A stretch of 64,000 bases of DNA from Vogesella sp. LIG4 (GTDB taxonomy: Bacteria > Pseudomonadota > Gammaproteobacteria > Burkholderiales > Chromobacteriaceae). Both the position numbers and the translations under genes were made by a program. The notes below the pieces were generated by a model that ran no database searches, was not told where the DNA came from, and worked only from the letters and a program-made list of their open reading frames with translations. The stretch spans positions 216,758-280,757 of the forward strand of contig NZ_LT607802.1 of the NCBI RefSeq assembly GCF_900090205.1. The letters are read 5' to 3'. The number at the start of each line of letters is the position of its first letter. The stretch's first letter is position 1. This document shows positions 265-63,354 of the stretch, in pieces.

Positions 265-290
265 TGCGGCCAACCCCAGGGTTGGCCGCA
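265..290. repeat. Inverted pair of the TGCGGCCAAC word between odhB and lpd
   Basis: TGCGGCCAAC (265-274) faces GTTGGCCGCA (281-290). The arms extend to about 11 bp with a loop of about 4 nt, so the transcript can form a strong hairpin. No T-run follows, so it may act as an attenuator or RNA-processing site rather than a strong terminator. It is one of several back-to-back pairs of the window-wide word. Confidence 0.85.
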
Positions 291-310
291 ACGTGCAAAG
301 GAAAGACTCA

Positions 311-1744
311 ATGAGCCAACAATTCGACGTAGTAGTGATCGGCGGCGGCCCCGGCGGTTACGTAGCCGCCATCCGCGCCGCCCAGCTGGGTTTCAATACC
401 GCCTGCGTGGACGCCTACAAGAACCCGGAAGGCAAGGCCTCCCTGGGCGGCACCTGCCTGAACGTGGGTTGCATCCCGTCCAAGGCGCTGCTGCAGTCCT
501 CGGAAAACTTCCACGCCATCCAGCATGACTTCGCCAAGCACGGCATCTCGGTAGACGGTGCCAAGATGGACGTGGCCACCATGCTGGATCGCAAGAACGG
601 CATCATCACCAAGAACGCCGGCGGCATCGCCTTCCTGTTCAAGAAGAACAAGGTTGCCAACATCCACGGCCTGGGTACGCTGAAATCCCGCCAGGGCGAC
701 AAGTGGGTCATCGAAGTGACCGACAACGGCGCCGTGGTGGACACCCTGGAAGCCAGCCACGTGATCGTGGCCACCGGTTCCAACCCGCGCCAGCTGCCGG
801 GCCTGGATACCGACAACCAGCTGGTGCTGGACAACGCCGGCGCGCTGGCGCTGGCTGACGTACCGGCCCGCCTGGGCGTGATCGGCGCCGGCGTGATCGG
901 CCTGGAAATGGGTTCGGTATGGAAGCGCCTGGGCGCCGACGTCACCATCCTGGAAGCCATGCCGACCTTCCTGGCCGCTGCCGACCAGCAGATCGCCAAG
1001 GAAGCGTTCAAGAGCCTGACCAAGGACACCGGCCTCGACATCAAGCTGGGCGTGAAGATCGGTGAAATCAGCAAGGGCGCCAACAGCGTCACCGTGAACT
1101 ACGAACTGAACGGCGAAGCCGTGAAGGCCGAGTTCGACAAGCTGATCGTGGCCATCGGCCGCGTGCCGAACACCGGCGGCCTGGGTGCCGACAACGTGAA
1201 CCTGCAGCTGGACGAGCGCGGTTTCGTGGTGGTGGACGATCACTGCCACACCAACCTGCCGAACGTATGGGCGATCGGCGACGTGGTGCGCGGCCCGATG
1301 CTGGCGCACAAGGCGTCCGAAGAAGGCGTGGCGGTTGCCGAGCGCATCGCCGGCCAGAAGCCGCACGTGGACTTCGGCGTGATTCCGTGGGTGATCTACA
1401 CCTCGCCGGAAATCGCCTGGGTCGGCAAGACCGAAGAGCAGCTCAAGGCCGAAGGCATCGAGTACAAGAAGGGCACTTCCGGCTTTGCGGCCAACGGTCG
1501 CGCGCTGGGTCTGGGCCATGCCCAGGGTACCGTCAAGCTCTTGGCCTGCGCCAAGACCGACCGCATCCTCGGCCTGCACATGATCGGCCCGATGGTGTCC
1601 GAGCTGGTGACCGAAGGCGTGGTGTCGATGGAGTTCAAGGCCGCCAGCGAAGACCTGGCACGCATTGTCCACGCTCACCCGTCGCTGTCCGAAGTGGTAC
1701 ATGAAGCTGCGCTGGCCGCCGACAAGCGCGCGCTGCACGGCTAA
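311..1744 (+). CDS. lpd: Dihydrolipoyl dehydrogenase (E3)
   Basis: FAD- and NAD-dependent enzyme that reoxidises dihydrolipoamide in 2-oxo-acid dehydrogenase complexes. The 477-residue product starts with the FAD-binding [13 protein letters not shown] segment, carries the redox cysteine pair in [13 protein letters not shown] (C49 and C54), an NAD-binding GAGVIGLE around residue 191, and the catalytic HAHPSLSE near residue 454. A GTG lies 18 bases upstream in frame, but the ATG at 311 follows AAAGGAAAG and gives the usual N-terminus, so it was chosen. It lies downstream of odhB and upstream of sucCD. One exact copy of TGCGGCCAAC lies within it at 1496. Confidence 0.96.
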
Positions 1745-1787
1745 AGCGAACCGGGCCGTGTACAATATCGCGGCCCACGTGAACGGT

Positions 1788-1811
1788 GCGGCAACCGCTT
1801 GCGGTTGCCGC
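1788..1811. promoter_or_regulatory. Hairpin between lpd and sucC
   Basis: GCGGCAACCGC (1788-1798), TT, then GCGGTTGCCGC (1801-1811) form a perfect 11 bp inverted repeat. No T-run follows. It resembles the TGCGGCCAAC word with one base missing but is a different sequence. It probably shapes the mRNA between lpd and sucC (processing or partial attenuation); that role is inferred. Confidence 0.55.
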
Positions 1812-1898
1812 CTGCAAAATAAGGCTGTGCGAGCAGCCAAGGAATAGAGACGTTGGCCAGACAGGCCCCGCCATCATTTCCACCCGAAAGGAAACTCA

Positions 1899-3068
1899 AT
1901 GAACCTGCACGAATACCAAGCGAAAGAGCTGCTGGCCAAGTACGGCCTGCCGGTGCAACAGGGCATTCTGGCCAACTCGCCGGAAGAAGCTGCTGCTGCT
2001 TACGACAAGCTGGGCGGCAAGTTTGCCGTTGTGAAGGCCCAGGTGCACGCCGGTGGCCGTGGCAAGGCCGGTGGTGTAAAAGTGGTGAAGAGCCGCGAAG
2101 AAGCCGCCGAGGTAGCCAAGACCCTGATCGGCACCAACCTGGTGACCTATCAGACCGACGCCGCCGGCCAGCCGGTAAACAGCGTGCTGGTATGCGAAGA
2201 CATGTACCCGGTACAGCGCGAACTGTACCTGGGCGCCGTGGTTGACCGTGGCACCCAGCGCGTGGTGTTCATGGTATCGACCGAGGGTGGTGTCGAGATC
2301 GAGAAGGTTGCCGAGGAAACCCCGGAAAAGATCATCAAGATCGAGATCGACCCGCTGGTTGGCGCTCAGCCGTTCCAGGGCCGTGATGCCGCATTTGCCC
2401 TGGGTCTGGAAGGCGCGCAGGTTGCCGCTTTCACCAAACTGTTCCTGGGCGCCGCCAAGGCCTTCATCGAGAACGACTTCGCCCTGTTCGAAGTAAACCC
2501 GCTGGCGCTGCGCGAAAACGGCGAACTGGCCTGCGTAGACGGCAAGATCAACCTGGACTCCAACGCCCTGTACCGTCACCCGGAACTGCTGGCCATGCGC
2601 GACAAGTCGCAGGAGAACGAGCGTGAAGTGAAAGCTTCCGAGTTCGACCTGAACTACGTGGCACTGGAAGGCAACATCGGCTGCATGGTGAACGGCGCCG
2701 GTCTGGCCATGGCCACCATGGACATCATCAAGCTGAAGGGTGGCCAGCCGGCCAACTTCCTGGACGTGGGCGGCGGCGCTACCAAGGAGCGCGTGATCGA
2801 AGCGTTCAAGCTGATCCTGGCCGATACCTCGGTACAGGGCGTGCTGATCAACATCTTCGGCGGTATCGTGCGTTGCGACATGATCGCCGAAGCGATCATT
2901 GCCGCGGTGAAGGAAGTGAACGTGACCGTGCCGGTAGTTGTGCGCCTGGAAGGCAACAACGCCGAGCTGGGCGCCAAGATCCTGGACGACTCCGGTCTGA
3001 AACTGACCTCCGCCCAGGGCCTGAACGACGCAGCCGAGAAGATCGTTGCTGCCGTTGCCGCCCTCTAA
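1899..3068 (+). CDS. sucC: Succinyl-CoA synthetase (ADP-forming), beta subunit
   Basis: Nucleotide-binding subunit of the TCA-cycle enzyme that couples succinyl-CoA cleavage to ATP or GTP synthesis. At 389 residues it matches the family (about 388). It begins [19 protein letters not shown] and carries the ATP-grasp segment with [10 protein letters not shown] near residue 50 and the ligase segment [10 protein letters not shown]. The start follows GAAAGGAAACTCA, nearly the same ribosome-binding site as lpd. It is separated from sucD by 27 bases, so the two subunits are probably made from one transcript. Confidence 0.97.
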
Positions 3069-3095
3069 TCACCCGCACCGCATAAGGATTTCAAA

Positions 3096-4029: not shown

Positions 4030-4091
4030 ATTGCCCATCATCGACAAGCCCGGCAGCCCTGCCCTTGCGGCCAACCCTGAGCGGCCGCAGG

Positions 4092-4121: not shown

Positions 4122-4146
4122 GAACAGCGGACACAGGTTGGCCGCA

Positions 4147-6966
4147 TCAGCCTTCCTGTGGCAACAGGCTTTCCTGGCGCAGCAACGGCTCCACCTGCTC
4201 CGCCGGCATCGGTTTGGCCAGCAGGTAGCCCTGTACCTGGTCGCAGCCGTGCTGCTCCAGGAAGCGCCACTGCTCGATGGTTTCCACCCCTTCCGCCACC
4301 ACCTGCATGTTCAGGTTCTTCGCCATATTGATGATGGCGCGGGTAATGGCGGTGTCGTCCTGGTCGTCCGGAATGTCGCGCACGAAGGAACGGTCGATCT
4401 TCAGCTTGTCGGCCTTGAAGCGCTTCAGATAGGCCAGGCTGGAGTAGCCGGTGCCGAAGTCGTCGATGGACATGCGGATGCCCATGTCCTGGATGGCGCG
4501 GATCGCCTGCACCGTGGACTCCAGGTCGTCCATGATCACGCTCTCGGTCACCTCCACGTCCAGGCAGCTGCCCGGCAGGTTGTAGGTGGCCAGCGCATTG
4601 CCCAGCACCTGGGTCAGGTCCTCGTGGCGGAACTGCAGTGCCGACAGGTTGACGCCCACGGTAATCAGCGGCAGGCCGGCGGCGTACCAGGCGGCAATCT
4701 GGCGGCAGGCCTCGCGGATCACCCAGTTGCCGATCTGCACGATAAAGCCGCGCTCCTCGGCCACGTCGATGAAGTGCAGCGGCCCCAGCAGGCCCAGCGA
4801 CGGGTGGTTCCAGCGAATCAGCGCCTCGGCGCCGATGATGCGGCCGGTGCGGATTTCCACCTGCGGCTGGTAGTGCAGCACGAACTCGCCGCGCTCCACC
4901 GCGTAGCGCAGCTGGCTTTCGATGGCCAGGATCTCGCGGGCGCGGGCATTGAGGTCGGCAGTGTAGAACTTGTAGTTGTTACGGCCGCTGGACTTGGCGT
5001 GATACATCGCCGCGTCGGCGTTGCGCACCAGGGTGTCGAAATCGCGGCCGTCATCCGGGAACACGCTGATGCCGATACTGCCGGTGACCATCAGCGAGTG
5101 GTTGTACACCTCCAGCGGGGTGGTGAACTCGGTGAGGATGCGCTCGGCCACGTGTGCGGCGGCGGCGGCATCGCTGACCAGCGGCAGCAGGATGATGAAT
5201 TCGTCGCCACCCTGGCGCGCCACCACCTCGCCGCTGCCCAGCACGCTGCGGATGCGTTCCGACGCGATCTTGAGCAGGATGTCGCCGGCGGCATGGCCCA
5301 GCGACTCGTTGATGGTCTTGAAGCGGTCCAGGTCCAGCAGCAGGATGCCCAGCTTGCCGTTGTCGTGGGTGGCGTTCTGGATCGCCAGCAACGCGCGATC
5401 CTGCAGGTGACCGCGGTTGGGCAGGCCGGTGAGCACGTCGAAGTGCGCCAGGAACTGGATGCGTTCGTCCGCCGCCTTGCGCTCGGACTGGTCGCTGAAG
5501 ATGGCCACGTAGTGGGTAACGTCGCCGGACGGGCTCTTCACCGCGTTGATGGCCAGCCACTCCGGGTATACCTCGCCGTTCTTGCGGCGGTTCCACACCT
5601 CGCCCTGCCACGAGCCCTGCTCGCTCAGCACCTGCCACAGGCTGTCGTAGAACTCTTTGCTGTGGCGGCCGGAGCTGAGCACCATCGGGCGCTGGCTCAG
5701 CACTTCTTCCTGGGTGAAGCCGGTGATTTCGGTGAAGGCGCGGTTCACGCTGCGGATGCGCACTTCGCCGTCGGTAATCATGATGCCTTCGGCGGTGTTC
5801 TCGAACACCTTGGCCGCCAGCTGCATGCGCTCTTCGGCGGCGCGGCGCTCGGAAATATCGCGCACCATGCGCCACACTGCGGTGATGCGGCCGCTGGCGT
5901 CGCGCATCGCCACGGTCTTGACGCTGACCGGGATCGGGTTGCCGATGCGGTTGATGTACTGCACTTCGAATTCGTCGCAGAAGCCGAAGCGCATCACCTT
6001 GTTATCCAGGTTGTAGCGCTCCTGCGCCTCGCTGTCGCGGTCCAGCAGGCCCCAGAAATTCTGCAGCTTGAGCTGGTCCAGGCTGTAGCCCAGCAGGCTG
6101 AGGAAGGCCGGGTTGGCGTCGATGATCTGCCCTTCCAGCGAGCTGATCACGATGCCGTCCAGGTTGGACCAGAACAGCTCGCGGTATTTGTTCTCGGAGC
6201 GGCGCAGCGCATCCTCCACCTCGCGGCGGCGTTCGATGTCCGCCTCCAGCGCCAGGGTCTTGGCCTTCAGCTCGTCGATCAGGCGCTTCAGTTCGGAGCG
6301 GGTCCACTCCAGGTGCTTGCCCACAGTGCCGATCTCGTCATGCCGCCCCCAGTGGAACGGTTCGTCCAGTTTCAATGCGGCCAACCTGGTGGCCTGCTGC
6401 GACAGCTGGGCAATGGGGCGCAGGAAGCGCGAATGCAGAATCGTCATCACCAGCACCACCGACAGCAGCAGCTGCGCCGCCACGATCAGCAGCAGGTTCT
6501 TCAGCTGGTTGCGCTGGTAGATTGCCAGGTGTTCGGTATCGAATTCGATGCTGACCTGGCCGATCTCCTCGCCGCGGTACACCACCGGTTTCTGCACGAA
6601 GGCCACGCTGCCGATGCGGCGCTCGCTACGCAGGGTGGACAGGAAGACGGTATTGGACTGCGTGTCGGTCACGCGGATGGAGATCACCCGCGGGTCGTCC
6701 ATCACCGAGGACACCAGCGGTGCGCCGGCCTGGCGGCTGAGGTTCCACAGCGGCTCCTGCATGCCCAGCGCCACGATGTCCAGCAGGCGTTTCTGGTCCA
6801 CCGCCAGCTGGTTTTCCGCCTGCTCGCGCTGCAGGTTGAAGGTCAGCACACTGATGATGATGGCTGGAATCAACAGGCCCAGTACCAGCGCCATTAAAAA
6901 CACCTGGCGCAACGACAAGCGCGAACCGATGGCGTAGCTATCGAAATTGTCCGGTTTCTGGGTCAT
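4147..6966 (-). CDS. Membrane PAS-PAS-GGDEF-EAL cyclic-di-GMP enzyme
   Basis: Likely makes and/or degrades the second messenger cyclic di-GMP at the inner membrane. From the ATG at 6966 (preceded by GGGGAAA) the protein has 939 residues: a membrane segment at about 19-42, a periplasmic domain, a second at 156-178, HAMP at about 180-235, PAS at about 260-380 and 385-505, GGDEF (RQGGDEF, residues 584-590) and EAL (GAEALIRWNHP, then DDFGTGYSSLAYLKRF). Catalytic motifs of both halves look intact, but no RxxD inhibitory site precedes GGDEF. The open frame extends further upstream, but that N-terminus does not look like protein. It is divergent from mtaD. The signal sensed is unknown. Confidence 0.93.
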   Translation of the reverse strand: MTQKPDNFDSYAIGSRLSLRQVFLMALVLGLLIPAIIISVLTFNLQREQAENQLAVDQKRLLDIVALGMQEPLWNLSRQAGAPLVSSVMDDPRVISIRVTDTQSNTVFLSTLRSERRIGSVAFVQKPVVYRGEEIGQVSIEFDTEHLAIYQRNQLKNLLLIVAAQLLLSVVLVMTILHSRFLRPIAQLSQQATRLAALKLDEPFHWGRHDEIGTVGKHLEWTRSELKRLIDELKAKTLALEADIERRREVEDALRRSENKYRELFWSNLDGIVISSLEGQIIDANPAFLSLLGYSLDQLKLQNFWGLLDRDSEAQERYNLDNKVMRFGFCDEFEVQYINRIGNPIPVSVKTVAMRDASGRITAVWRMVRDISERRAAEERMQLAAKVFENTAEGIMITDGEVRIRSVNRAFTEITGFTQEEVLSQRPMVLSSGRHSKEFYDSLWQVLSEQGSWQGEVWNRRKNGEVYPEWLAINAVKSPSGDVTHYVAIFSDQSERKAADERIQFLAHFDVLTGLPNRGHLQDRALLAIQNATHDNGKLGILLLDLDRFKTINESLGHAAGDILLKIASERIRSVLGSGEVVARQGGDEFIILLPLVSDAAAAAHVAERILTEFTTPLEVYNHSLMVTGSIGISVFPDDGRDFDTLVRNADAAMYHAKSSGRNNYKFYTADLNARAREILAIESQLRYAVERGEFVLHYQPQVEIRTGRIIGAEALIRWNHPSLGLLGPLHFIDVAEERGFIVQIGNWVIREACRQIAAWYAAGLPLITVGVNLSALQFRHEDLTQVLGNALATYNLPGSCLDVEVTESVIMDDLESTVQAIRAIQDMGIRMSIDDFGTGYSSLAYLKRFKADKLKIDRSFVRDIPDDQDDTAITRAIINMAKNLNMQVVAEGVETIEQWRFLEQHGCDQVQGYLLAKPMPAEQVEPLLRQESLLPQEG

Positions 6967-7133: not shown

Positions 7134-8453
7134 ATGCAAAACACCGCATTCGATCAGCTGATCAGCGCGCGCTGGATCATTACAGTCGAACAAGATGGCC
7201 TGGTACTGGAAAACCATGCCGTGGCCGTGCGCAACGGCCGCATCGTCGCCATCCTGCGCCCGGAAGAAATCGCCGGCGCCAGTGCCGCCGAGCGCATCGA
7301 CCTGCCGCAGCACGTGCTGATGCCGGGCCTGGTGAACCTGCATGGCCATTCCGCCATGACCCTGCTGCGCGGCATGGCCGATGACAAGGCGCTGATGGAC
7401 TGGCTGCAGAACCATATCTGGCCGGCGGAAGGCAAGCATGTCAGCGATGCCTTTGTATTCGATGGTGCCTTATTGGCAATGGGTGAAATGTTCCGCAGCG
7501 GCACCACCACCATCAACGATATGTATTTCTTCCATGCCGCCATGGGCCGCGCCGGCCTGGCTGCCGGCATGCGTACCTTCGTCGGCTGTTCGATCCTGGA
7601 ATTCCCCACCGTCTACGGCCAGAACGCCGACGACTACATCGCCAAGGGCATGGCCGAGCGCCAGCAGTTCCTGGGCGAAGAGCTGATCACCTTCACCCTG
7701 GCGCCGCATGCCCCGTACACGGTGGCCGACGACACCTTCCGCAAGGTCATCACCCTGGCCGAGCAGGAAGACATGCTGATCCACTGCCACATCCACGAAA
7801 CCATGGATGAAGTGAACGGCAGCATCGACCAGTACAAGCAGCGCCCGCTGGCGCGCCTGGCGAACCTGGGCCTGCTGTCGCCGCGCCTGATCGCCGCGCA
7901 CATGGTGCACCTCAGCGACGAGGAAATCGCGCTGGTGGCCAAACATGGCGTGTCCATCGCCCACAACCCCACTTCCAACATGAAGCTGGCCTCCGGCATT
8001 GCCCCGGTACAGAAGCTGTTGGCCGCAGGCGTGAACGTGGGCATCGGCACCGACGGCGCCGCCTCCAACAACAAGCTGGACATGCTGAGCGAGACCCGCA
8101 TGGGCGCGCTGCTGGCCAAGGTCGGCACGCTGGACCCCACTGCCGTGCCGGCGGCCACCGCCATCCGCATGGCCACCCTGCACGGCGCTCAGGCGCTGGG
8201 CATTGCCGACAAGGTGGGCACGGTCAGCGTGGGCAAGCAGGCCGACCTGATCGCCGTGGACCTGTCGGCGGTGGAAACCAGCCCGCAGTTCGACCCGATC
8301 TCGCACATCGTCTACGCCGCCGGCCGCGAACAGGTGAGCCACGTCTGGGTGAACGGCCGCCAGGTGCTGCGCGAACGCGCACTGACCACGCTGGACGAAG
8401 CGGAACTGAAGGCTCGCGCCGAAGACTGGCGCGTACGCATTCTGGCTAAATAA
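7134..8453 (+). CDS. mtaD: 5-methylthioadenosine/S-adenosylhomocysteine deaminase family amidohydrolase
   Basis: Cytosolic metal-dependent deaminase of the TRZ/ATZ (amidohydrolase) family, expected to deaminate methylthioadenosine or S-adenosylhomocysteine in methyl-cycle salvage. The 439 residues contain the metal ligands of the family: LHGHSAMTLLRG (HxH), HCHIHET, AAHMVHL and the GTDGAASNN aspartate. The ATG at 7134 was preferred to an upstream in-frame ATG because MQNTAFDQLISARWIITV matches the family start. It is followed 12 bases later by ubiG, whose methylation also yields S-adenosylhomocysteine, which gives the pairing metabolic sense. Related chlorohydrolases share the fold, so the exact substrate is inferred. 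Confidence 0.85.
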   Translation: MQNTAFDQLISARWIITVEQDGLVLENHAVAVRNGRIVAILRPEEIAGASAAERIDLPQHVLMPGLVNLHGHSAMTLLRGMADDKALMDWLQNHIWPAEGKHVSDAFVFDGALLAMGEMFRSGTTTINDMYFFHAAMGRAGLAAGMRTFVGCSILEFPTVYGQNADDYIAKGMAERQQFLGEELITFTLAPHAPYTVADDTFRKVITLAEQEDMLIHCHIHETMDEVNGSIDQYKQRPLARLANLGLLSPRLIAAHMVHLSDEEIALVAKHGVSIAHNPTSNMKLASGIAPVQKLLAAGVNVGIGTDGAASNNKLDMLSETRMGALLAKVGTLDPTAVPAATAIRMATLHGAQALGIADKVGTVSVGKQADLIAVDLSAVETSPQFDPISHIVYAAGREQVSHVWVNGRQVLRERALTTLDEAELKARAEDWRVRILAK

Positions 8454-8465: not shown

Positions 8466-9948
<1,483 letters not shown>

Positions 9949-10626: not shown

Positions 10627-10628
10627 CC

Positions 10629-11039
10629 ATGCTAAGCCTCACCACCCCTGCCCTGCTGTTTCCCGCCATTTCCCTGCTGCTGCTGGCCTATACCAACCGC
10701 TACCTGGCGCTGGCCGGCATCATCCGCAACCTGTACGACGACTACCAGCAAACGCCCAGCGAGAAGCTGGTGCAGCAGATCGGCAACCTGCGCCAGCGCA
10801 TTGCGCTGATCAAATGGATGCAGTCGCTGGGAGTGGGCAGCCTGTTCCTGTGCGTGGTGGCCATGCTGCTGATCTACACCGGTTGGCCGCAAGCCGCGCA
10901 GTTCATCTTCGGCACCAGCCTGCTGCTGATGATCATGTCGCTGGGCATGTCGCTCTTGGAGCTGCGCATGTCCACCGATGCGCTGAACATCCTGCTGTCC
11001 GACCTGATCGCCGCCGAACGCGAACGCGGCCGGCGCTGA
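10629..11039 (+). CDS. DUF2721 family membrane protein
   Basis: A 136-residue protein with a hydrophobic N-terminal segment (about residues 5-27), a basic amphipathic stretch (LVQQIGNLRQRIALIKWM) and two further membrane segments at about 60-105. The pattern matches the DUF2721 family of small inner-membrane proteins with no known function. It starts 2 bases after the L,D-transpeptidase stop, so the two are probably co-translated. The gene converges on the small-RNA candidate downstream. Confidence 0.75.
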   Translation: MLSLTTPALLFPAISLLLLAYTNRYLALAGIIRNLYDDYQQTPSEKLVQQIGNLRQRIALIKWMQSLGVGSLFLCVVAMLLIYTGWPQAAQFIFGTSLLLMIMSLGMSLLELRMSTDALNILLSDLIAAERERGRR

Positions 11040-12144: not shown

Positions 12145-12639
12145 TCAGCGCAGGCGCAGGTAATCGGCAAAGCGGTAGCGCAGACCGTTGGCCGCAAGCT
12201 GCTCCTCACCTTCGCTGCATTGCCATTGCTCCGCCTGCCAGCGCGGAAACCGCGCATCACCGGCCACCTCCAGCGCGATATGCGTCAGGCACAGCTTGTC
12301 GGCCAGCGGCAGTGCCTGCTCGTACAGATTGGCGCCGCCGATCACGCACACCTCCTCTGCCGCACCAGCCAGCGCCAGTGCCGCCTCCAGCGAATGCGCC
12401 ACGCTGACGCCCTCGTGCTGCCAGTCCTGCTGGCGGGTGATCACGATGTTCAAGCGCCCCGGCAGCGGACGGCCGATGGAATCGAAGGTCTTGCGCCCCA
12501 TGATCACCGGTTTGCCCAGCGTCACCGCCTTGAAATGCTTGAGGTCTTCCGGCAGGTGCCACGGCAGGGTGTTGTCGATGCCGATCACGTTGTCGTGCGC
12601 CATCGCCGCCACCAGCGTGAGGGTTGGCCGCATGCTCAT
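12145..12639 (-). CDS. folA: Dihydrofolate reductase
   Basis: NADPH-dependent reduction of dihydrofolate to tetrahydrofolate. The 164-residue protein has the start [24 protein letters not shown] cut by the usual Trp-His and DLKHFK active-site segment, [17 protein letters not shown] and [12 protein letters not shown]. The ATG at 12639 overlaps the thyA stop (ATGA) and GGAGG lies 7 bases upstream, so thymidylate synthesis and recycling of its folate product are translationally coupled. A second in-frame ATG is two codons on. Confidence 0.96.
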
Positions 12640-13430: not shown

Positions 13431-13600
13431 CGCTACCTCAAACATGCAGAATCGAATCGCGCGATTGTACCGTTTCCCGGCTGCCTGCGGCCAACTGGCG
13501 GCGGCAAACACCTGCCCAATTGACCAAACACCACCGCAGCCAGGCCGCAATCGGCTAACATCGCCGCTTAATGGTTATTTTCAATTAACAAGCGCGCGCC

Positions 13601-16867: not shown

Positions 16868-16870
16868 GGC

Positions 16871-19974: not shown

Positions 19975-20017
19975 TGCGGCCAACCTTTTGCGCCGCCAGT
20001 AAACGGAATCGTCAATC

Positions 20018-30705: not shown

Positions 30706-30746
30706 TCCTTCTTGCCATACGCATGCGGCCAACCTTCACCCCGTAA

Positions 30747-43164: not shown

Positions 43165-43395
43165 GCGCCGGTTCGCGATCTGCTGTGCGTCGGCGATACC
43201 GCGTTCAGCATGCTTAATGAATGCGCATTTGCCCTGCGCAAGCTCCGCTTCCCCGGCCGTTTTCGCCCCCTCTCGCGCTGGCTCGCCAGCTCGTGAACGC
43301 ACGCAGAGGCCTTGCGGCCAACCCTGGCGGCCCCAAGAGCGCGGCATTCCTGCTAACCTTGCGCTTTTTCCGGCCTCTTTTGTCTGGAGCTGCGC

Positions 43396-49512: not shown

Positions 49513-49542
49513 GCCTGCGGCCAACCTTCACCGGAGCCCGCC

Positions 49543-50340
49543 ATGTCCACCCGCTACCTGATCGCCGCGCTACTGGCCGTACTGTGCACGGCGGCAGCGG
49601 CCGAAGACCCCGCCCGCGCCAGCCTGAGCGCGGATGGCGGGACGCTGCAGTACGAGGGACCGCTGGCGCTGGATACCATCCGGCAGCTGGAGCTGCTGTA
49701 CCAGCAAAGCACGGTCAAACCGCGCGAACTACAGATCAACAGCCCCGGCGGCGATGCACGGCTGGGCATGTATCTGGGCTACCTGGTACACGGATGGGGG
49801 CTGGACGTGCGCGTGCGCGAGCAATGCGCATCGTCCTGCGCCAACTACGTGTTTCCGGCCGGGCGGGAAAAGTACCTGGAAGACGGCAGTATGCTGCTGT
49901 GGCATGGCGGTGCGCTGCAGCCGGACTGGCAGGCCATCATCCGCGCCAGATGGCCGCACGAGCCGGCCCGGCAGCAGGCGGCCCGCGACGACATCAAACT
50001 GTGGCAGCAGCAGGAGCAGACGTTCTACGGCAGCATCGGCGTCAGCCAGCTGATTACCGTCTGCGGCCAACATGAGCAATGGCGCAAGGCGGTACCGCAG
50101 TCCGTGGGCTTCGATTACTCGCCGGAAGACCTGGCGCGCTTCGGCATCCGCGGGCTGCACCTGCCGCCTGGTGGCTGGCAGCCACACCAGCGCTGGAACT
50201 CGCCAGCCTTCTTCCGTGCCGCCTGGTGCGATAAGCCACCAGCACCCGTCGATGAGGTGCTCTGCGGCTGCAAGTTCGACCAGGACCCGCCGGGCGCCTC
50301 GGCACCGGCAGCGGCTACACCCAGCCCAACATCCCCATAA
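49543..50340 (+). CDS. Periplasmic ClpP/crotonase-fold protein
   Basis: A 265-residue protein with a signal peptide (cleavage near residue 20) and a ClpP-like core: LQINSPGGDARLGMYLGYLV, VREQCASSCANYVFPAGREK (the serine of ASSCANYVF is in the nucleophile position) and LLWHGGALQ. The GGD and SSCAN segments resemble SppA/ClpP-type serine peptidases, but the histidine and aspartate cannot be placed by eye, so activity is uncertain. Its last 26 bases overlap the 3' end of the convergent chrA gene. Confidence 0.65.
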   Translation: MSTRYLIAALLAVLCTAAAAEDPARASLSADGGTLQYEGPLALDTIRQLELLYQQSTVKPRELQINSPGGDARLGMYLGYLVHGWGLDVRVREQCASSCANYVFPAGREKYLEDGSMLLWHGGALQPDWQAIIRARWPHEPARQQAARDDIKLWQQQEQTFYGSIGVSQLITVCGQHEQWRKAVPQSVGFDYSPEDLARFGIRGLHLPPGGWQPHQRWNSPAFFRAAWCDKPPAPVDEVLCGCKFDQDPPGASAPAAATPSPTSP

Positions 50341-50833: not shown

Positions 50834-51381
50834 CGCGTGCTCCCCGGCCAGAACCAGCTGGCGGCAATGCCCAGCGTGGCCAGCAACAGCAGCACCGGCA
50901 ACAGCGGCAGCTGCCAGATGGCCACCGCGACAAAGGTGGCCAGCAGCAACAGCCACGGCAGCACGCGGCGCGGCAGGCGTGCGGCCAACTTCAGTGCCAT
51001 GCCGAAGATCAGGCCGATGGCGGTGGGCCCCAGGCCGCGCAGCAGGCCCTGTACCAGCGGCAACTGCTGGTAGCTGGCATACACGCTGGCCAGCAGTAGC
51101 ACCACGCCCAGCGGCGCCAGCAACAGGCCGCCGCAGGCAGCCAGCGCCCCGCTGGCACCATGAAAGCGCGCCCCCACCGCCACCGCCACGTTGACGATGT
51201 TCGGCCCCGGCAGCACCTGCCCCAGGCCCAGCATTTCGGCAAACTGCTGCTGGCTGAGCCAGCGCCGCCGCTCCACCAGCATGTGCTGCGCATGCGGCAG
51301 CACGCCGCCAAAACCGGACAGCCCCACCATGAAGAAACCGGCAAACAAGGCCCGCCGATCGGGCACCACTAGCGTTGTCAT
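50830..51381 (-). CDS. Chromate transporter, first half (short ChrA)
   Basis: A 183-residue membrane protein (GFFMVGLSGFGGVLPHAQHM, LGQVLPGPNIVNVAVAVGAR) homologous to the other half at 50315-50833. The pair should form a heterodimer of opposite topology. The gene is divergent from a LysR regulator with a 78-base gap that contains a perfect 9 bp dyad, so LysR control is likely. Confidence 0.88.
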   Translation of the reverse strand: MTTLVVPDRRALFAGFFMVGLSGFGGVLPHAQHMLVERRRWLSQQQFAEMLGLGQVLPGPNIVNVAVAVGARFHGASGALAACGGLLLAPLGVVLLLASVYASYQQLPLVQGLLRGLGPTAIGLIFGMALKLAARLPRRVLPWLLLLATFVAVAIWQLPLLPVLLLLATLGIAASWFWPGSTR

Positions 51382-52403: not shown

Positions 52404-53627
52404 CTACGGGGAGCTTGCCAGCGGCGGGAAGTGCAGCCGGCGCATGTCCGGCAGGCCGTCGGCAAACGGCAGCGCCACTTCTCCTGCCAGCAAGGGCTGC
52501 AGCCAGGCGCGGCAGGCTGGCGTCACGTCCAGGCCGCTGGCGGCGATGAAATCGGCCGGCAGCGCGCGTTCCAGATTGGCCACCGCCGCCAGCGGCTGCG
52601 GCACGACCTGCCAGTCGCAGCCATCGGCAGTGGCAAACCGCTCGATGGCGGCCATCACGCCGCCCTGCCCGGCTAGCGCCCACTGCACCGCCTTGCGGCC
52701 AACCTCGTAGGCCAGCCGCGCGTCCACTGCCGACAACAGATGCCGGGCGGCACGCTGCAGGCAATCGGCCACCGCCACGTGCGCATGCAGCTGCAACTGC
52801 TGCTGAATGCGCTGCGCCAGCCAGTTGCCGGCGCCGCCCAGCTGCTCGTGGCCATACACCTTGTCGGCGTGCCTCTGTGCCACGAAGCGGCCATCGGCGC
52901 CGCGCAGCCCTTCGGATACCACGATGGCACAGTAGCCCTGCACCGCCACCTGCGCCTGCACCGCGGCGAACAGCCGCGCCTCGTCGTAGGCCACCTCCGG
53001 CAGCAGCAACAACGGCGGCGCCTCGTCCGGCAGCGCCGCCAGGCAGCCGGCGGCAGCTAGCCAGCCCACGTGGCGGCCCATGGTTTCCAGGATGAACACC
53101 CGCCCCTGCGCCATGCTGCGCATGTCGAACAGCACCTCGCGCAGGCTGCTGGCCAGGTATTTGGCGGCAGAGGGGAAGCCGGGGCTGAAGTCGGTGGCTT
53201 CCAGGTCGTTGTCTATGGTCTTGGGGATGCCCACCACCGTCAGCGGCAGCTGGAAGCGCTCGGCCAGCTGTTGCAGCAGTAGCGCGGTTTCCATCGAACC
53301 GTTGCCGCCGTTGAGCAGCAGCTGGCGGATATCGTGGCGCTGCAGTACCTCGGCCAGCTGTTGCCACAGCTGCGGCGCCTCGTCGTACGGAGGCAGAATG
53401 TCGCGGCTGCTGCCGAAGGCCGCGCCCGGCAGCTGGCCCAGCCGGGCGCAGTCGTCGGCGGACAGCGCATCGCAGTCCAGCAGGCGGCCGCCCAGCAGGC
53501 CGGCCAGGCCATCGGCGGCGGCGCACACCGACACGCCCAGTGCGCGGGCGCTGTCGATCACGCCCTGGGCGGAGAGGTTCAGCACGGCGGTGGGGCCGCC
53601 GGATTGCAGATACAGCAGACGGGACAT
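52404..53627 (-). CDS. pfp: 6-phosphofructokinase, PPi-type
   Basis: Phosphorylates fructose 6-phosphate, probably with pyrophosphate. The 407-residue product has GGPTAVLN (G10-G11), GGNGSMET near residue 107, GIPKTIDNDL (the K of PKTIDND is typical of PPi-using enzymes) and ETMGRHVGW. In the usual GGDGS the aspartate binds Mg and phosphate donor; here it is asparagine, which is unusual. The start at 53627 is chosen because MSRLLYLQSGGPTA matches the family; the frame extends upstream. Confidence 0.85.
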   Translation of the reverse strand: MSRLLYLQSGGPTAVLNLSAQGVIDSARALGVSVCAAADGLAGLLGGRLLDCDALSADDCARLGQLPGAAFGSSRDILPPYDEAPQLWQQLAEVLQRHDIRQLLLNGGNGSMETALLLQQLAERFQLPLTVVGIPKTIDNDLEATDFSPGFPSAAKYLASSLREVLFDMRSMAQGRVFILETMGRHVGWLAAAGCLAALPDEAPPLLLLPEVAYDEARLFAAVQAQVAVQGYCAIVVSEGLRGADGRFVAQRHADKVYGHEQLGGAGNWLAQRIQQQLQLHAHVAVADCLQRAARHLLSAVDARLAYEVGRKAVQWALAGQGGVMAAIERFATADGCDWQVVPQPLAAVANLERALPADFIAASGLDVTPACRAWLQPLLAGEVALPFADGLPDMRRLHFPPLASSP

Positions 53628-53759: not shown

Positions 53760-54572
53760 TCAGTTGGCCGCATCCGCGCGCCACACCACCGGAAACCAGT
53801 CCTCGCGCAGGCGCTCGCCCTGCTGCTGGTTGATGCCGGGGAACGGCGGCGAAGTGCGGCCCGGGCGCTGTTCGAAACGCACGTCGTCGCCAATGAAGCG
53901 CGCCGAAAACGCGCGGCGGCGGTTGCCGCCCAGGTTGCCGGCAGCGCCGTGCACGGTGTGGAAGTCGAACACCACCGCGTCGCCCGGCTCCATCTCCGGC
54001 ATCAGGATGCGGTAGCTGCCGTCGTCCACGTCCGGCATTTCCATGAAGTCGTCTTCGCCGGCAAAGAAGTTCTCGTTGCTGGCCCAGCGCTTGGGGCGCA
54101 CCAGCTTGGGCCAGCGGTGCGAGCCCAGCACCACGCGCAGGGTGTTGTCGCTGCGCACCGGGTCCAGCGGAATCCAGTAGCTGGCGGTCTGCAGCCCGCT
54201 GACGCAGTAGTAGGGAATGTCCTGGTGCCACGGTGTCGGCTTGGCAGTGCCCGGCTCCTTCACCAGGATGTGTTCGTGGAACATCTGTACCTGCTGCGAC
54301 TGCATCAGCTGGCCGGCAACGCCGGCGGCGGGCGAATCATGGATGAAGCGGCCGAACGGCGCGATGCGCTGCCAGTTGCAGTAGTCCTCGAAGAAGCGGC
54401 CGGCTTCGCCGTTGCCGACGTTCTCGATGGCGAACGGGCCGGGTGCGGCCAACACCTGCTCGAAGCCGTCGCGCAGGGTGTCGATCCAGTCGCGGAACAC
54501 GCCGCGCAGGACGATGGCGCCATCGCGCTGGTAGTCGGCAATCTGCTGCGGGCTGGGGGTAACAGTGGACAT
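53760..54572 (-). CDS. Phytanoyl-CoA dioxygenase (PhyH) family oxygenase
   Basis: Fe(II)/2-oxoglutarate-dependent oxygenase of 270 residues. Likely metal ligands are H116 and D118 in PWHQDIPYY and the distal histidine in FDFHTVHGA (about H208); R219 or so in NRRRAFSARF would bind 2-oxoglutarate. GGAGG precedes the start. It is divergent from a LysR gene, its probable regulator. The substrate is unknown: the family includes ectoine, halogenation and secondary-metabolite enzymes. Confidence 0.86.
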   Translation of the reverse strand: MSTVTPSPQQIADYQRDGAIVLRGVFRDWIDTLRDGFEQVLAAPGPFAIENVGNGEAGRFFEDYCNWQRIAPFGRFIHDSPAAGVAGQLMQSQQVQMFHEHILVKEPGTAKPTPWHQDIPYYCVSGLQTASYWIPLDPVRSDNTLRVVLGSHRWPKLVRPKRWASNENFFAGEDDFMEMPDVDDGSYRILMPEMEPGDAVVFDFHTVHGAAGNLGGNRRRAFSARFIGDDVRFEQRPGRTSPPFPGINQQQGERLREDWFPVVWRADAAN

Positions 54573-54665: not shown

Positions 54666-55565
54666 ATGATCACCTTCTCGCTGCGCCAACTGGAGTACTT
54701 CGTCGCCACCGCCGAGCACGGCGGGGTGAATGCCGCCGCCCGCGCCCGCCATGTGTCGCAGCCGTCGGTATCGCAGGCCATTGCCGAGCTGGAACGCAGC
54801 CTGGGCACGCCGCTGTTCCGCCGCCAGGCCAGCCGCCGCGTGGAGCTTACCGACGCCGGTCTGGAGGTGTTGCAGCAGGCGCGGCAGCTGCTGGCCCAGG
54901 CCGCGGCGCTGGGGCGCCAGCCGGAAGCCGCCAGCCTGCGCGGCCAGCTGTCGCTGAGCTGCTTCCAGGATCTGGCGCCCTACTATGCGCCGCGGCTGCT
55001 GGCCGGCTTTCGCCGCCAGCACCCGGAGGTGGAGCTGACGCTGCTGGAAGGCGACCTCGCCAGCGTGCAGCGTGCGCTGCGCAGCGGCAAGGCGGAGCTG
55101 GCACTGACCTATGAGCTGGCCAGCGAGCCACAGCTGCCGCGCCAGGTGCTGGACGAGCTGCCACCGTATGCGCTGCTGCCGGCCGGGCACCCGCTGGCCG
55201 CGCAGGCGGTAGTGTCGCTGCAACAGTTGGCCGCAGAGCCGTTGATTCTGGAAGACATGCCGCATAGCCGCGAGTATCTGCTGTCGCTGTTCTGGCAGCA
55301 GCAGCTGACCCCGCGCGTGGCGCAGGCGGTGCAGAGCTTCGAGATGCAGCGCGGGCTGGTGGCACACGGCTGCGGCGTGGCGCTGGCCTGCATGCGCCCG
55401 GCGGGCGACCACAGCTATGACGGCGTGGCCATCGTCTGCCGGCCGCTGGCGGAGGCGCTGCCACCGCAACGGGTGGTGCTGGTGCAGGCGGCGGATTCGC
55501 CACTGGCCAGCGCCTTTACGCAGTGGGCCACCAGCCATGCGGCCAACCTTGGGGCTGCTGCATAA
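54666..55565 (+). CDS. LysR family regulator
   Basis: A 299-residue LysR protein (FSLRQLEYFVATAEHGGVNA, VSQPSVSQAIAELERSLGTP) with an N-terminus of the OxyR/CynR-like branch rather than GcvA. The 93-base gap to the divergent PhyH gene is AT-rich (54610-54665) and probably holds its binding site. Confidence 0.9.
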   Translation: MITFSLRQLEYFVATAEHGGVNAAARARHVSQPSVSQAIAELERSLGTPLFRRQASRRVELTDAGLEVLQQARQLLAQAAALGRQPEAASLRGQLSLSCFQDLAPYYAPRLLAGFRRQHPEVELTLLEGDLASVQRALRSGKAELALTYELASEPQLPRQVLDELPPYALLPAGHPLAAQAVVSLQQLAAEPLILEDMPHSREYLLSLFWQQQLTPRVAQAVQSFEMQRGLVAHGCGVALACMRPAGDHSYDGVAIVCRPLAEALPPQRVVLVQAADSPLASAFTQWATSHAANLGAAA

Positions 55566-56291: not shown

Positions 56292-56331
56292 GCCGCAGCA
56301 AGGTTGGCCGCAAGCCCGCGGGGGCAAACAA

Positions 56332-59353: not shown

Positions 59354-60643
59354 ATGAAGCAAACCCTGCAAGACTGGCTGCACGCGCACGCCATCACTCA
59401 TATCGAATGCCTGATTCCTGACCTGAACGGCCTGCCGCGCGGCAAGCTGGTGCCGGTCAGCCACTACCCGGCCACCGGCCAGCTGCGCTTTCCGCAAGTC
59501 AGCCTGATCCAGACCCTGATGGGCGACCCGCAGCAGCAGTTGGTGCCCGACAACGACCCCGACATGGTGCTGACCCCGGACCTGGACACCCTGTGTGTCA
59601 AACCGGGCGCTGGTCGCCGCATCGCCCAGCTGATCCACGACTGCCATTTCGAAGATGGCCGCAGCGTACCGGCCGCGCCGCGTGGCGTGCTGCGCGAGGT
59701 ACTGGCGCAGTACCGTGCGCTGGGGCTGACGCCGGTGGTGGCACCGGAGATCGAATTCTATCTGCTGGATGCCGATGGCCTGCAGGCCGAAGCGGTCGGC
59801 CCGGCCTATTCACTGGACCACAGCCAGCGCCACGAAGCGTTTTTTGCCGAGCTGGAACAGCAGTGCCACCAGCAGGGCATTGCCACCGACATCCTGCTGC
59901 ACGAAGTCGGCAACAGCCAGTACGAGCTCAACCTGCAGCATGGCGATGCCTTGCGCCTGGCCGACCAGGTATTCCTGCTCAAGCGTACGCTGCGCGCGCT
60001 GGCCGCCAGCCATGGGCTGAAAGCCTGTTTCATGGCCAAACCGTTTGCCGGCCAGCCCGGCAGCGCCATGCACATCCACCAGAGCCTGGTAGATGACAAT
60101 GACCGCAATACCTTCAGCCAGGCCGATGGCGACGCACACCCGCGCTTCGCCCACTTCATTGCCGGGCTGCAACGCTACCTGCCGGCCGCCATGGCATTGA
60201 TGGCACCGAATCCGAATGCCTATCGTCGCCTTGCGGCCAACACTGCGGCGCCGATCAACGTGGAATGGGGCTACGACAACCGCAGCTGCGGGCTGCGCAT
60301 CCCCGCCTCCTCACCGCAGGCGCGACGCGTGGAAAACCGCCTGCCGGGCATAGACGGCAACCCCTATCTGGCGCTGGCGGCCACACTGGGCTGCGGTCTG
60401 TTGGGGCTGCGCGAAGCCCTGGCCCCCAGCGAGCCGCTGACAGGCAGTGCCTACGGCCACGCCGCCACCCTGCCGCGCGACCTGTCCGCCGCCTTGCAGC
60501 TGCTGGACCGCAGCGAAGGTCTGGCCAGCGTCCTGGGTGAAGCGTTCACCGCGCTGTTCGTGGCGTTGAAGCAGGTGGAACTGGATCACTTCCAGCAGCA
60601 GGTCACCGCCTGGGAGCAGCAATACCTGCTGGATCAGGCCTGA
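59354..60643 (+). CDS. Glutamine synthetase-family ligase (PuuA-like)
   Basis: A 429-residue GlnA-family enzyme. It has the N-terminal beta-grasp (IECLIPDLNGLPRGKLVPVS), the metal-binding PEIEFYLLD, GQPGSAMHIHQSL and NPNAYRRLAAN segments and the VENRLPGIDGNPYLALAA region. The PDLNGLPRGK and HIHQSL motifs match gamma-glutamylputrescine synthetase and its relatives rather than housekeeping GlnA. No other puu genes are near, so the amine substrate is uncertain. Confidence 0.85.
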   Translation: MKQTLQDWLHAHAITHIECLIPDLNGLPRGKLVPVSHYPATGQLRFPQVSLIQTLMGDPQQQLVPDNDPDMVLTPDLDTLCVKPGAGRRIAQLIHDCHFEDGRSVPAAPRGVLREVLAQYRALGLTPVVAPEIEFYLLDADGLQAEAVGPAYSLDHSQRHEAFFAELEQQCHQQGIATDILLHEVGNSQYELNLQHGDALRLADQVFLLKRTLRALAASHGLKACFMAKPFAGQPGSAMHIHQSLVDDNDRNTFSQADGDAHPRFAHFIAGLQRYLPAAMALMAPNPNAYRRLAANTAAPINVEWGYDNRSCGLRIPASSPQARRVENRLPGIDGNPYLALAATLGCGLLGLREALAPSEPLTGSAYGHAATLPRDLSAALQLLDRSEGLASVLGEAFTALFVALKQVELDHFQQQVTAWEQQYLLDQA

Positions 60644-60790: not shown

Positions 60791-62131
60791 ATGCCGTTTT
60801 TCTCGCCCAGACTCTCGCTGGATCAACTGCCGGGCGTCACCCTGCCGCCAGACAGCCTGCAGACGCTGCACTCCGCCAGCGAATTCCGCCTCAAGCTGCT
60901 GGAGCTGATTCGCAATGCCAGTACGCGCATTCATCTGGCAGCGCTGTACCTGCAACAGGATGAAGCCGGAGCCGAGATTCTCGACGCGCTCTACCAGGCT
61001 GCCAGCAGCAAACCACAGCTCGATGTGCGCATCTTCGTGGATGCCCACCGCGCGCAACGCGGCTTGATCGGGCAGGGAAAACAGGCCGGCAATGCAGCCT
61101 GGTATTGCCAGCGCGCCGAGCAACAGCCGCTGGCCAACCTGGCAATCCATGGGGTGCCGGTACAGGGCAAGGAGCTGTTTGGCGTACTGCACCTGAAGGG
61201 CTTCGTCATCGACGACCAGGTGCTGTACAGCGGTGCCAGCCTCAACAATGTCTACCTGCATGTGGGCGAGCGCTACCGTTTCGACCGTTATCACCTGCTG
61301 CAACACGCCGAGCTGGCCGACAGCCTGTCGCAGTTCCTGTTGACCCAGTTGGCGGAAGACCCGGCCGTCATCCGCCTGGACCGCCCGGTGTCTGTGGACA
61401 AGCGGCTGCAACGGCTGCAGATCCGCCAGTTCCGCGCCCGCTTGGCACAGGCACAGTATCAATTGCCTGCCCAGACAGCAGGCAGCCCCAGCATTCACCC
61501 GATTTGCGGCGTAGGCCGTGGCAACCCGTTCAACAAGCTGCTACTGCAACTCCTGCGCCTGCCCACGCAGCAACTGGTCATCTGCACACCCTATTTCAAC
61601 CTGCCGCGCAGCGTGCTGCTGCAGATCGACAGCCTGTTGAGCCGCGGTGTATCCGTCGAAATCATCGTCGGCGACAAACTCGCCAACGATTTTTACATTC
61701 CGCCGGAGCAGCCCTTCAAGCTCATCGGCTGCCTGCCCTACCTGTATGAAATGAACCTGCGCCGCTTCGCCCGCAAGCGCCAGTCCTACCTGCAAAGCGG
61801 GCAACTCTGCCTGCGGCTGTGGCAGCATGCGGCCAACAGCTACCACCTGAAAGGGCTGTGGATCGATCAGCACTACATGCTGCTCACCGGCAACAACCTC
61901 AACCCGCGCGCCTTCAACCTGGATCTGGAAAACGGCCTGCTGATCCACGACCCGGCACAACAGCTGCAGGCACAGCGCGAACAGGAACTGGCCAGCATCC
62001 GCGAACACACTACCGCTCTGCGCCACTATCGCGAATTGCAGAAGCTGCACGACTACCCGGACAAAGTACGCAAACTGCTGGGCCGCCTCGGCAAGCTGCG
62101 CATCGACCGGCTGTTCTATCGGCTACTCTGA
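60791..62131 (+). CDS. pssA: Phosphatidylserine synthase (PLD superfamily)
   Basis: CDP-diacylglycerol-serine O-phosphatidyltransferase of the E. coli type. The 446 residues hold two HKD motifs, HLKGFVIDDQVLYSGASLNN near residue 134 and HLKGLWIDQHYMLLTGNNLN near 353. Length is close to E. coli PssA (451). It works at the membrane surface in phosphatidylethanolamine synthesis. Start MPFFSPRL at 60791; the frame extends 17 codons further up. Confidence 0.93.
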   Translation: MPFFSPRLSLDQLPGVTLPPDSLQTLHSASEFRLKLLELIRNASTRIHLAALYLQQDEAGAEILDALYQAASSKPQLDVRIFVDAHRAQRGLIGQGKQAGNAAWYCQRAEQQPLANLAIHGVPVQGKELFGVLHLKGFVIDDQVLYSGASLNNVYLHVGERYRFDRYHLLQHAELADSLSQFLLTQLAEDPAVIRLDRPVSVDKRLQRLQIRQFRARLAQAQYQLPAQTAGSPSIHPICGVGRGNPFNKLLLQLLRLPTQQLVICTPYFNLPRSVLLQIDSLLSRGVSVEIIVGDKLANDFYIPPEQPFKLIGCLPYLYEMNLRRFARKRQSYLQSGQLCLRLWQHAANSYHLKGLWIDQHYMLLTGNNLNPRAFNLDLENGLLIHDPAQQLQAQREQELASIREHTTALRHYRELQKLHDYPDKVRKLLGRLGKLRIDRLFYRLL

Positions 62132-62148
62132 TTACCGTTACCAGCTGG

Positions 62149-63000
62149 CTAGGAGACAGTCATCGGCCAGTCGCCAGGCGTACATTTGGACCACTCCACA
62201 CCTGGCCGGTAAAACAGGGCAGCCTGCCCGCGCGATAGCTGCAGGAACGAGGGTTGCTGCTGCAGCGTGATCTTGCCGTGCTGCACCAGGTAGTCAACCG
62301 AATACTTGGGGTAGGCCATGATGACATCGTCCCCCAGGAAGTTCACATCCTGCGGCAGCAGGATAGCGGCCAGCTTGCCTTCATCGTCGCCGGGTTCAAG
62401 TTTTGCCAGCGCGGCAATCAGCTCATCATTGCGCACTTTCTCTTTCAGGTCGGCGCGGGACTTGTTCAGAGTTTTCACGATATTGAGAGGGTTGGTGCCC
62501 ATATCCAGCAGTGATTTCACCTGTCCGATCAGCGGGTTATCGACAATCGACTTGATACTCTGCACTGCAGACTTGCCGGAAAAGGCCAGCTGCACACTGC
62601 TTGCCGGCTTCATTTGCTGCAGCAGGCTCCCCGCCCACTGATCAGCCAGTTTCCCCCAGTACTGCTGATTGGCGGTGGCAAACCCCCGGCAGGAATAGAA
62701 AGCCTGCGTTTGCCGCCGATCCAGTACCCCGGCCAGCTTGCCATCCACGAACACCACCCCGCCGGTATCCCCTTCCGTCAGCGCGACATAGGCCACATTG
62801 CGCCCCTTGGCATCCTTCATGACAAAACGCTCCAGCGCCGCGCCGGCAGGAATGCTGCGCACCACTTCTCTTGCCTGGCTCTGCTCATCTATCAACATTG
62901 AACTGGCACCAGCAAATTCCCCAGGCGTTCCTGCCGCCAGCAGCGATACACCATGACCGGCAAGCCACAAGGCCATACCAAGTTTTCCCCACTTTTTCAT
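62149..63000 (-). CDS. Secreted protein of unknown function
   Basis: A 283-residue protein with a signal peptide (KKWGKLGMALWLAGHGVSLL, likely cleavage after LLAAG) and GGAGG before the ATG at 63000. I recognise no domain. It has a globular N-terminal half (IPAGAALERFVMKDAKGRNV, GGVVFVDGKLAGVLDRRQTQ) and a helical middle, with two lone cysteines (in YSCRGF and SKCTPG) that could form a disulfide. It lies between pssA and the rRNA operon. Function unknown. Confidence 0.65.
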   Translation of the reverse strand: MKKWGKLGMALWLAGHGVSLLAAGTPGEFAGASSMLIDEQSQAREVVRSIPAGAALERFVMKDAKGRNVAYVALTEGDTGGVVFVDGKLAGVLDRRQTQAFYSCRGFATANQQYWGKLADQWAGSLLQQMKPASSVQLAFSGKSAVQSIKSIVDNPLIGQVKSLLDMGTNPLNIVKTLNKSRADLKEKVRNDELIAALAKLEPGDDEGKLAAILLPQDVNFLGDDVIMAYPKYSVDYLVQHGKITLQQQPSFLQLSRGQAALFYRPGVEWSKCTPGDWPMTVS

Positions 63001-63215
63001 GCCCACCTCCGTGATGTTGCTATCCAGCTTGCATTGGTTCGAATGAACCACATCACACCCTACGTATCAGCGAGCAATCGAACAATTCGCCACGGCAAGC
63101 AAATGTCATTTGGCGGGAAGTTTCGACAGCAAGCGCCTGCGAGGCCCGTCTGGGGCGCCGGAGGCAATGAGGCAAGCAAGCAAAACCGATCCACCGAGTA
63201 CGACAGGGCCGGTTA

Positions 63216-63237
63216 TTGCGGCCAACATTGGCCGCAA
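63216..63237. repeat. Inverted pair of the TGCGGCCAAC word
   Basis: TTGCGGCCAA (63216-63225) and TTGGCCGCAA (63228-63237) are perfect inverted 10-mers separated by two bases. One arm is the exact word (63217-63226); the other has A in place of the first G. Confidence 0.85.
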
Positions 63238-63334
63238 AGGATGGGAGCAAGGGCGGTGTTGGTGACCGCCACCATTTGGCAGCAGAAACCACAAAGCCCG
63301 CAGCAGCGGGCTTGTTGTTTGACTGATGCGCGTC

Positions 63335-63354
63335 TGCGGCCAACGTTGGCCGCA
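63335..63354. repeat. Perfect 20-base palindrome of two TGCGGCCAAC words
   Basis: TGCGGCCAAC (63335-63344) is followed without any spacer by GTTGGCCGCA (63345-63354). With no loop it is a poor terminator but an ideal double protein-binding site or a double uptake word. Confidence 0.9.

Follow-up and report, generated by a model that had tools for sequence, protein, structure and literature searches.

The DNA considered here is a 64-kb stretch of the genome of Vogesella sp. LIG4 (the window, by which we mean the whole stretch analysed), and the element in question is a 10-base word, TGCGGCCAAC, that recurs throughout it. We found 52 exact copies (29 forward and 23 reverse); dinucleotide shuffles (n = 100) gave 0.48 copies on average and never more than 3. 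According to our own codon-usage gene calls, which leave 10.4% of the window non-coding, 34 of the 52 copies lie wholly within genes and the remaining 18 (35%) do not. A preliminary description of this DNA had reported about 52 copies on both strands, with about a third in the small non-coding fraction, and our counts agree with both statements. Its coordinates were right for 48 of the 52 copies; the other four had been given 10 too high (Table 1). Based on the comparisons presented below, we propose that TGCGGCCAAC is very probably the Vogesella dialect of a DNA uptake sequence (DUS) of the Chromobacteriaceae.

TABLE 1 Exact copies of TGCGGCCAAC in the 64-kb window
Position of copy	Strand	Context
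265..274	+	left arm, inverted pair 265-290
281..290	-	right arm, inverted pair 265-290
1486..1495	+	earlier given as 1496
4066..4075	+	intergenic
4137..4146	-	intergenic
6376..6385	+	
8018..8027	-	earlier given as 8028
8780..8789	-	
9185..9194	+	left arm, inverted pair 9185-9217
9208..9217	-	right arm, inverted pair 9185-9217
9462..9471	+	
10882..10891	-	
12187..12196	-	
12623..12632	-	
13486..13495	+	intergenic; earlier given as 13496
17149..17158	+	
17761..17770	-	
18478..18487	-	
19975..19984	+	intergenic
20599..20608	+	
22396..22405	-	
24890..24899	+	left arm, inverted pair 24890-24915
24906..24915	-	right arm, inverted pair 24890-24915
26044..26053	+	within HSP90-family gene
26213..26222	-	within HSP90-family gene
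28502..28511	+	
30724..30733	+	intergenic
32134..32143	-	
33138..33147	+	
35411..35420	+	
36559..36568	+	
37348..37357	-	
37985..37994	-	
38986..38995	-	
39964..39973	-	
43313..43322	+	intergenic
48091..48100	+	
48217..48226	-	
49516..49525	+	intergenic
50062..50071	+	
50980..50989	+	earlier given as 50990
52694..52703	+	
53763..53772	-	
54444..54453	+	
55226..55235	-	
55538..55547	+	gene edge
56303..56312	-	intergenic
60232..60241	+	
61828..61837	+	
63217..63226	+	intergenic
63335..63344	+	left arm, gapless inverted pair 63335-63354
63345..63354	-	right arm, gapless inverted pair 63335-63354

In the 4.15-Mb genome as a whole the word occurs 2,895 times, divided 1,437 to 1,458 between the strands, and a control with the letters reversed occurs 8 times; a local cluster was rejected on this count. 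For a closer view we took the window together with 20 further stretches (21 in total; 454,243 bases, 7,127 masked as N). When 10-mers in this sample were counted against an order-3 Markov model, an analysis the preliminary description had suggested for the complete genome, TGCGGCCAAC ranked first, with 336 copies against 3.5 expected (about 95-fold), and its density was 0.40 to 1.00 copies per kb in every one of the 21 stretches. Words that differ from it by a single mismatch totalled 105 against 109 expected, an expectation that is itself raised by the word copies, and a few of them were over-represented, foremost CGCGGCCAAC (20 against 5.1). Over-representation could also be epigenetic, reflecting the site of a restriction-modification system or of an orphan methylase, and words bound to genera, as described below, could track methylases bound to genera. 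However, a non-palindromic word of 10 bases enriched to this degree argues against such a site, we know of no methylase that drives enrichment of this kind, and we consider this explanation very unlikely.

The bases around the word were tallied for 334 of the 336 copies, the other two being too near a stretch end. The preliminary description had proposed that the flanks favour A before the word and C-T-T after it. The latter held (C 173, T 175, and T 173 at the three following positions), but the former held only in part, since T precedes the word more often than A (120 versus 106). The flanks thus lean weakly towards A/T upstream of the ten letters and C-T-T downstream, with at most 0.46 bit per position. 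This bears on whether the word belongs to a dispersed repeat or to an intrinsic terminator. Sixteen inverted pairs of the word in the 454 kb, 7 of them gapless, and the window copies outside genes would suit an element of this type. A dispersed repeat was nevertheless rejected because there is no longer unit, and intrinsic terminators were rejected because a T-rich tail (5 or more T among the 10 bases outside either arm) was found in none of the 16 pairs, one of which is readable for just 3 bases on one side; moreover, about two-thirds of the window copies are within genes. The parallel drawn earlier with uptake words paired at terminators therefore stands for the pairing and falls for the T-rich tails, and we regard an explanation by repeats or terminators as extremely improbable.

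We also considered a signal with an internal, genome-wide role in chromosome organization or recombination, such as FtsK-orienting polar sequences (KOPS), Chi, or a site of a nucleoid or ParB-type protein. The copies are spread more evenly than at random (variance-to-mean ratio of 0.67 over 87 bins of 5 kb free of N), which such a signal would fit, as it would the maintenance of sites described below, and inverted pairs could serve as dimer sites. Taking dnaA (1.07 Mb) as the origin, which agrees with the signs of the GC skew (+0.033/-0.031), we find 161 of the 336 copies on the leading strand. KOPS and Chi roles are disfavoured by this absence of replication-strand bias, and we rejected them as candidates. 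The preliminary description had listed three outcomes that would overturn its proposal (genome-wide counts close to expectation, clustering in the window alone, and a strict strand bias relative to replication), and we observed none of them. The comparison with other genera bears on the remaining roles.

Within the NCBI taxonomy, Vogesella is placed in the Chromobacteriaceae, Neisseriales. The ParE protein of the window is 96 to 97% identical to that of Vogesella margarita, V. indigofera, V. urethralis, and Betaproteobacterium L13, and 93 to 95% identical to that of Chromobacterium and Aquitalea. We observed TGCGGCCAAC at high copy number in all 13 Vogesella genomes (1,871 to 2,895 copies; 1,871 to 2,442 in the 12 other than the window's), at 8 to 58 copies in 36 genomes from nine other genera of the family, and at 2 to 52 copies in 32 genomes from other families. 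Individual loci follow the same division: four named Vogesella-type loci contain 13, 11, 10, and 12 copies in ~17.7 kb, and five Chromobacterium and two Aquitalea loci contain 0 or 1.

The comparison with related genera that the preliminary description had called for revealed dialects with a common core. A k-mer screen of 40 to 80 kb from each of nine sister genera, which as a control recovers the DUS words already known from loci of Neisseria and Alysiella, showed that five of the nine have their own word built on the core CGGCCAAC. Each dialect consists of this core preceded by two genus-bound letters: Vogesella has TG, Crenobacter has CT, and several sister genera have TT. We counted the dialects in 61 genomes of the family, denoting sister genera g2 to g10. 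The TT form, TTCGGCCAAC, has 183 to 2,168 copies in eight sister genomes, belonging to g3 (2,168 and 579), g5 (1,245), g10 (1,851), g2 (1,104, 893, and 183), and, in one genome only (G017), g6 (1,368). The CT form, CTCGGCCAAC, has 1,940 and 1,590 copies in two g4 genomes, a genus we assign to Crenobacter because one of the two matches C. luteus parE at 100% over 1,956 bases. Vogesella genomes contain 8 to 34 copies of TTCGGCCAAC and 14 to 40 of CTCGGCCAAC. Each genome has a single dominant dialect, at most with a small excess of a second form (TT, 77 and 78 in Crenobacter; CT, 165 in G023). One of the three dialects is present in 23 of the 61 genomes. The other 38 (nine g6, nineteen g7, six g8, and four g9) are wordless, with no more than 62 TT and 92 CT words, and TGCGGCCAAC, counted in 26 of them, is at background level there.

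Some of the TT counts stand apart from those of congeners. The 84%-complete G029 of g2 (183 copies versus 893 to 1,104) and G023 of g3 (579 versus 2,168) resemble word decay, and the abundance of TTCGGCCAAC in G017, compared with the nine other members of g6, would mean either that an ancestral dialect was retained or that the genome is misplaced.

First letters that are bound to the genus on a fixed core are typical of uptake dialects and would be odd for a core chromosomal function, and the word is missing from nearby genera, Chromobacterium and Aquitalea among them. We therefore regard a chromosome-organizing or recombination signal as unlikely.

Maintenance at orthologous sites is a defining trait of DUS. 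We compared sites in 110 genome pairs from 11 Vogesella genomes over the parE and comP regions (15 to 20 kb each), using shuffled words of the same letters as controls. The pairs are non-independent, and sites were scored from both genomes, such that shared sites count twice and unshared sites once, for word and control alike. On this basis the aligned site also carried the exact word in 85.1% of 416 cases in pairs 90 to 95% alike (controls, 53.4% of 352), 80.5% of 256 in pairs 85 to 90% alike (39.6% of 202), 45.8% of 48 in pairs 80 to 85% alike (14.6% of 41), and 33.8% of 580 in pairs less than 80% alike (11.7% of 512). The flanks were slightly less conserved near the word than near the controls in every bin. 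The word is a maintained, genus-bound address.

An uptake word calls attention to its possible receptor, and the ComP-like minor pilin whose presence the preliminary description had proposed to check was found in 13 of 13 Vogesella genomes. In the window's genome it is P0001, a minor pilin of 139 residues (G000:C1:1559002-1559421), and the orthologues in the 12 other genomes are 38 to 56% identical to it. The gene order is the same in all 13: a fimT-like gene, comP, a gene for a small protein without a Pfam match, and aroB, beyond which the window's genome has aroK and then a PilQ-type secretin gene. The fimT-like gene overlaps or abuts comP, and its product is a basic pilin (approximate globular isoelectric point 9.0 to 10.0 in 13 of 13; PF12019 in the two tested). 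No fimT-like or aroB homologue was seen within ~1.5 kb of the sister ComP genes, a search that a diverged copy could escape.

The solved structures nearest to P0001 are those of ComP (2m3k, 5hz7, and 2nba). We collected 30 ComP-family loci, of which 21 entered an alignment and the profile made from it (A1) and 28 entered a tree; L065 and L073 were left out of the latter as they gave no clean reading. The top three PDB matches were ComP for P0001, for one orthologue, and for profile A1. Over the globular part, the profile matched 2nba at 2.2e-18, 2m3k at 1.3e-17, and 5hz7 at 5.9e-17, and it matched the major pilins PilE and PilA mostly via the N-terminal half. A PilE-like Vogesella pilin, used as a control, matched PilE and no ComP at E 0.01. 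In the unrooted tree a long branch (support 100/99) separates the 13 Vogesella proteins from the rest, and they share a five-residue insertion after a WPxLP motif, where they have 11 residues and the sister sequences have 6 in seven of eight cases (12 in the g5 sequence). The cut-off of the Pfam model PF16732 (ComP_DUS), 27.3, was passed by 11 of the 13 Vogesella comP loci; that of G010 was not among the matches listed.

A number of observations weigh against the uptake interpretation. P0001 itself scores 23.8 with ComP_DUS, under the cut-off, whereas the same genome encodes a PilE-like pilin with a score of 72.6, and PilE-like pilins across these genomes reach up to 84.1; because these outscore P0001, the model fails to separate the two kinds of pilin here. 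The calculated globular charge of the 13 Vogesella proteins at pH 7 is weak (-2.1 to +4.9). The beta-1 site has no cysteine, and the sheet part has the C-terminal cysteine pair only, in 13 of 13; since the chain ends 3 to 4 residues past the last cysteine in all of them, the DD-region appears to be absent. Neisseria ComP is described with two disulfides, one of them tying the DD-region to beta-1, and these bridges are reported to be crucial for DUS binding (PMC12061091). ComP-like pilins are also found where the word is not: profile A1 has a match of 3.6e-37 or better in 22 of the 38 wordless genomes and in 23 of 23 word-bearing genomes, the profile itself including g6 to g8 sequences, and a protein from the wordless genus g7 has ComP as its best match. 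The g9 genomes alone reach no better values than PilE-like pilins do (2.5e-15 to 3.5e-18). The presence of ComP alone was thus rejected as a marker of word-bearing genera; ComP may be older than the word, or the word may have been lost in the wordless genera. Finally, in a small comparison of the window with four distant species, in which few words were aligned, no window word was kept exactly at its aligned position (0 of 17), nor was any in the reverse direction (0 of 13).

Other competence genes sought at the suggestion of the preliminary description were likewise present, the PilQ-type secretin having been noted above. TIGR00426, which we take to be the ComEA-type family, and DprA scored above their cut-offs in 13 of 13 Vogesella genomes, and ComEC was found in 11 of 13, the misses being a draft of 330 contigs and an 88%-complete genome. 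A further point on the opposing side is that ComEC, DprA, and the ComEA-type family are also found in control genomes, among them E. coli (10, 10, and 9 of 14, respectively). Because they are this common in controls, these genes are weak evidence, permitting uptake without proving it.

Weighing these points together, we find the uptake interpretation of the preliminary description supported by the abundance of the word on both strands, its genus-bound dialects, its maintenance at sites, and the ComP homologue in every Vogesella genome, all of them features read from sequence. Binding, uptake, the identity of the receptor, and the FimT-like partner are what we infer beyond these, as follows. 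At the cell surface, a minor type IV pilin would capture free DNA bearing the word; the most likely candidate is the ComP homologue P0001, possibly with the basic FimT-like pilin as a partner in binding. The pilus would then retract via the PilQ-type secretin, ComEA and ComEC would take one strand in, and DprA would aid its recombination. Biased uptake of DNA from kin that carry the word would allow the word to spread and persist. That P0001 is the receptor seems to us somewhat more probable than the converse; our confidence on this point is weaker because one defining feature of ComP is lacking and because a basic FimT-like pilin is encoded next to it.

Several side observations concern the loci themselves. 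Two intervals, of 7.5 and 5.7 kb and with GC contents of 0.54 to 0.56, are the longest in the 454 kb to lack the word (stretch L031, 2419-9885, at ~4.139-4.147 Mb of G000:C1, and stretch L033, 6597-12280, at ~2.151-2.156 Mb); they hold two pilin-type gene clusters that appear compositionally foreign. Of the masked bases in the window's genome, 4,786 are in stretch L042 and 2,339 in L043. In the window, tandem flagellar-type genes at 14777-18364 encode a member of the FHIPEP family (FlhA-type) and an SRP54-type GTPase, presumably of the FlhF type. The end of the window (63470-64000, minus strand) holds a 5S rRNA gene and the 3' end of a 23S rRNA gene, and the gapless inverted pair at 63335-63354 is located just past the 5S gene.

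Among the matches listed, uptake words in print come mainly from the Neisseriaceae and Pasteurellaceae. A 2013 survey reports no obvious DUS in any of the five genomes it covered from this side of the order, namely those of Laribacter, Lutiella, Pseudogulbenkiania, and two Chromobacterium (PMC3630211). No description of the present words as uptake sequences was among the matches listed from the open-licence literature, though the TT word may stand uninterpreted in Table S1D of that survey, which lists over-represented 10-mers of five genomes. The letters GGCCAAC appear in four papers among the listed matches, as part of a cloning primer or of a no-DUS control oligonucleotide. A further family with at least three dialects, a new core, and wordless genera alongside would offer a natural series for the joint change of word and receptor, and it raises the question of which part of ComP reads DNA without a DD-loop. 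If our interpretation is true, word-dependent natural transformation is predicted in Vogesella, Crenobacter, and their relatives, which would aid their genetics.

Compared with known systems, the arrangement described here is best explained as one of the DUS/ComP kind that departs from it in two defining respects, the CTG core of the word and the beta-1 cysteine and DD-region of ComP. It shares with the DUS of the Neisseriaceae a non-palindromic word of 10 bases that each genome contains ~2,000 to 2,900 times, on either strand, inside and between genes, and also as inverted pairs, together with dialects around a fixed core and the presence of a ComP homologue. In the 2013 survey, all eight Neisseriaceae dialects keep CTG, invariant at positions +6 to +8, with A at +10 (PMC3630211), whereas the three words here and their reverse complements lack CTG, share the core CGGCCAAC, and end in C. 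In contrast to Neisseria ComP, the homologues here have one C-terminal cysteine pair and neither the beta-1 cysteine nor, as it appears, the DD-region, and the Vogesella comP gene overlaps or abuts a basic fimT-like gene.

The uptake signal sequence (USS) of the Pasteurellaceae resembles the Vogesella word in having a short core, an AT-leaning flank, and many exact copies. It is a different word with a different receptor, proposed to be ComN/PpdA (PMC12616744). The Vogesella word contains GCGG, the inner core of the USS, and this is probably a coincidence, because the sister dialects lack it. FimT of Legionella is a DNA-binding minor pilin. The likeness lies in a basic GspH/FimT-type pilin encoded immediately upstream of comP in all 13 Vogesella genomes; the difference is that the Vogesella FimT-like pilin is paired with a ComP homologue, and its DNA binding and any sequence preference are putative. 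The same source mentions the Legionella protein in this role (PMC12616744). Taking these comparisons together, a possible though doubtful joint reading is that the uptake-address system of the Chromobacteriaceae differs in its word core, CGGCCAAC, and in a receptor without a DD-loop, that the Vogesella receptor is a two-pilin tip, in which the ComP homologue, DD-less and carrying five inserted residues after WPxLP, is joined by the basic FimT-like pilin encoded by the abutting gene, and that the switch from TT or CT to TG came with the arrival of comP beside fimT.

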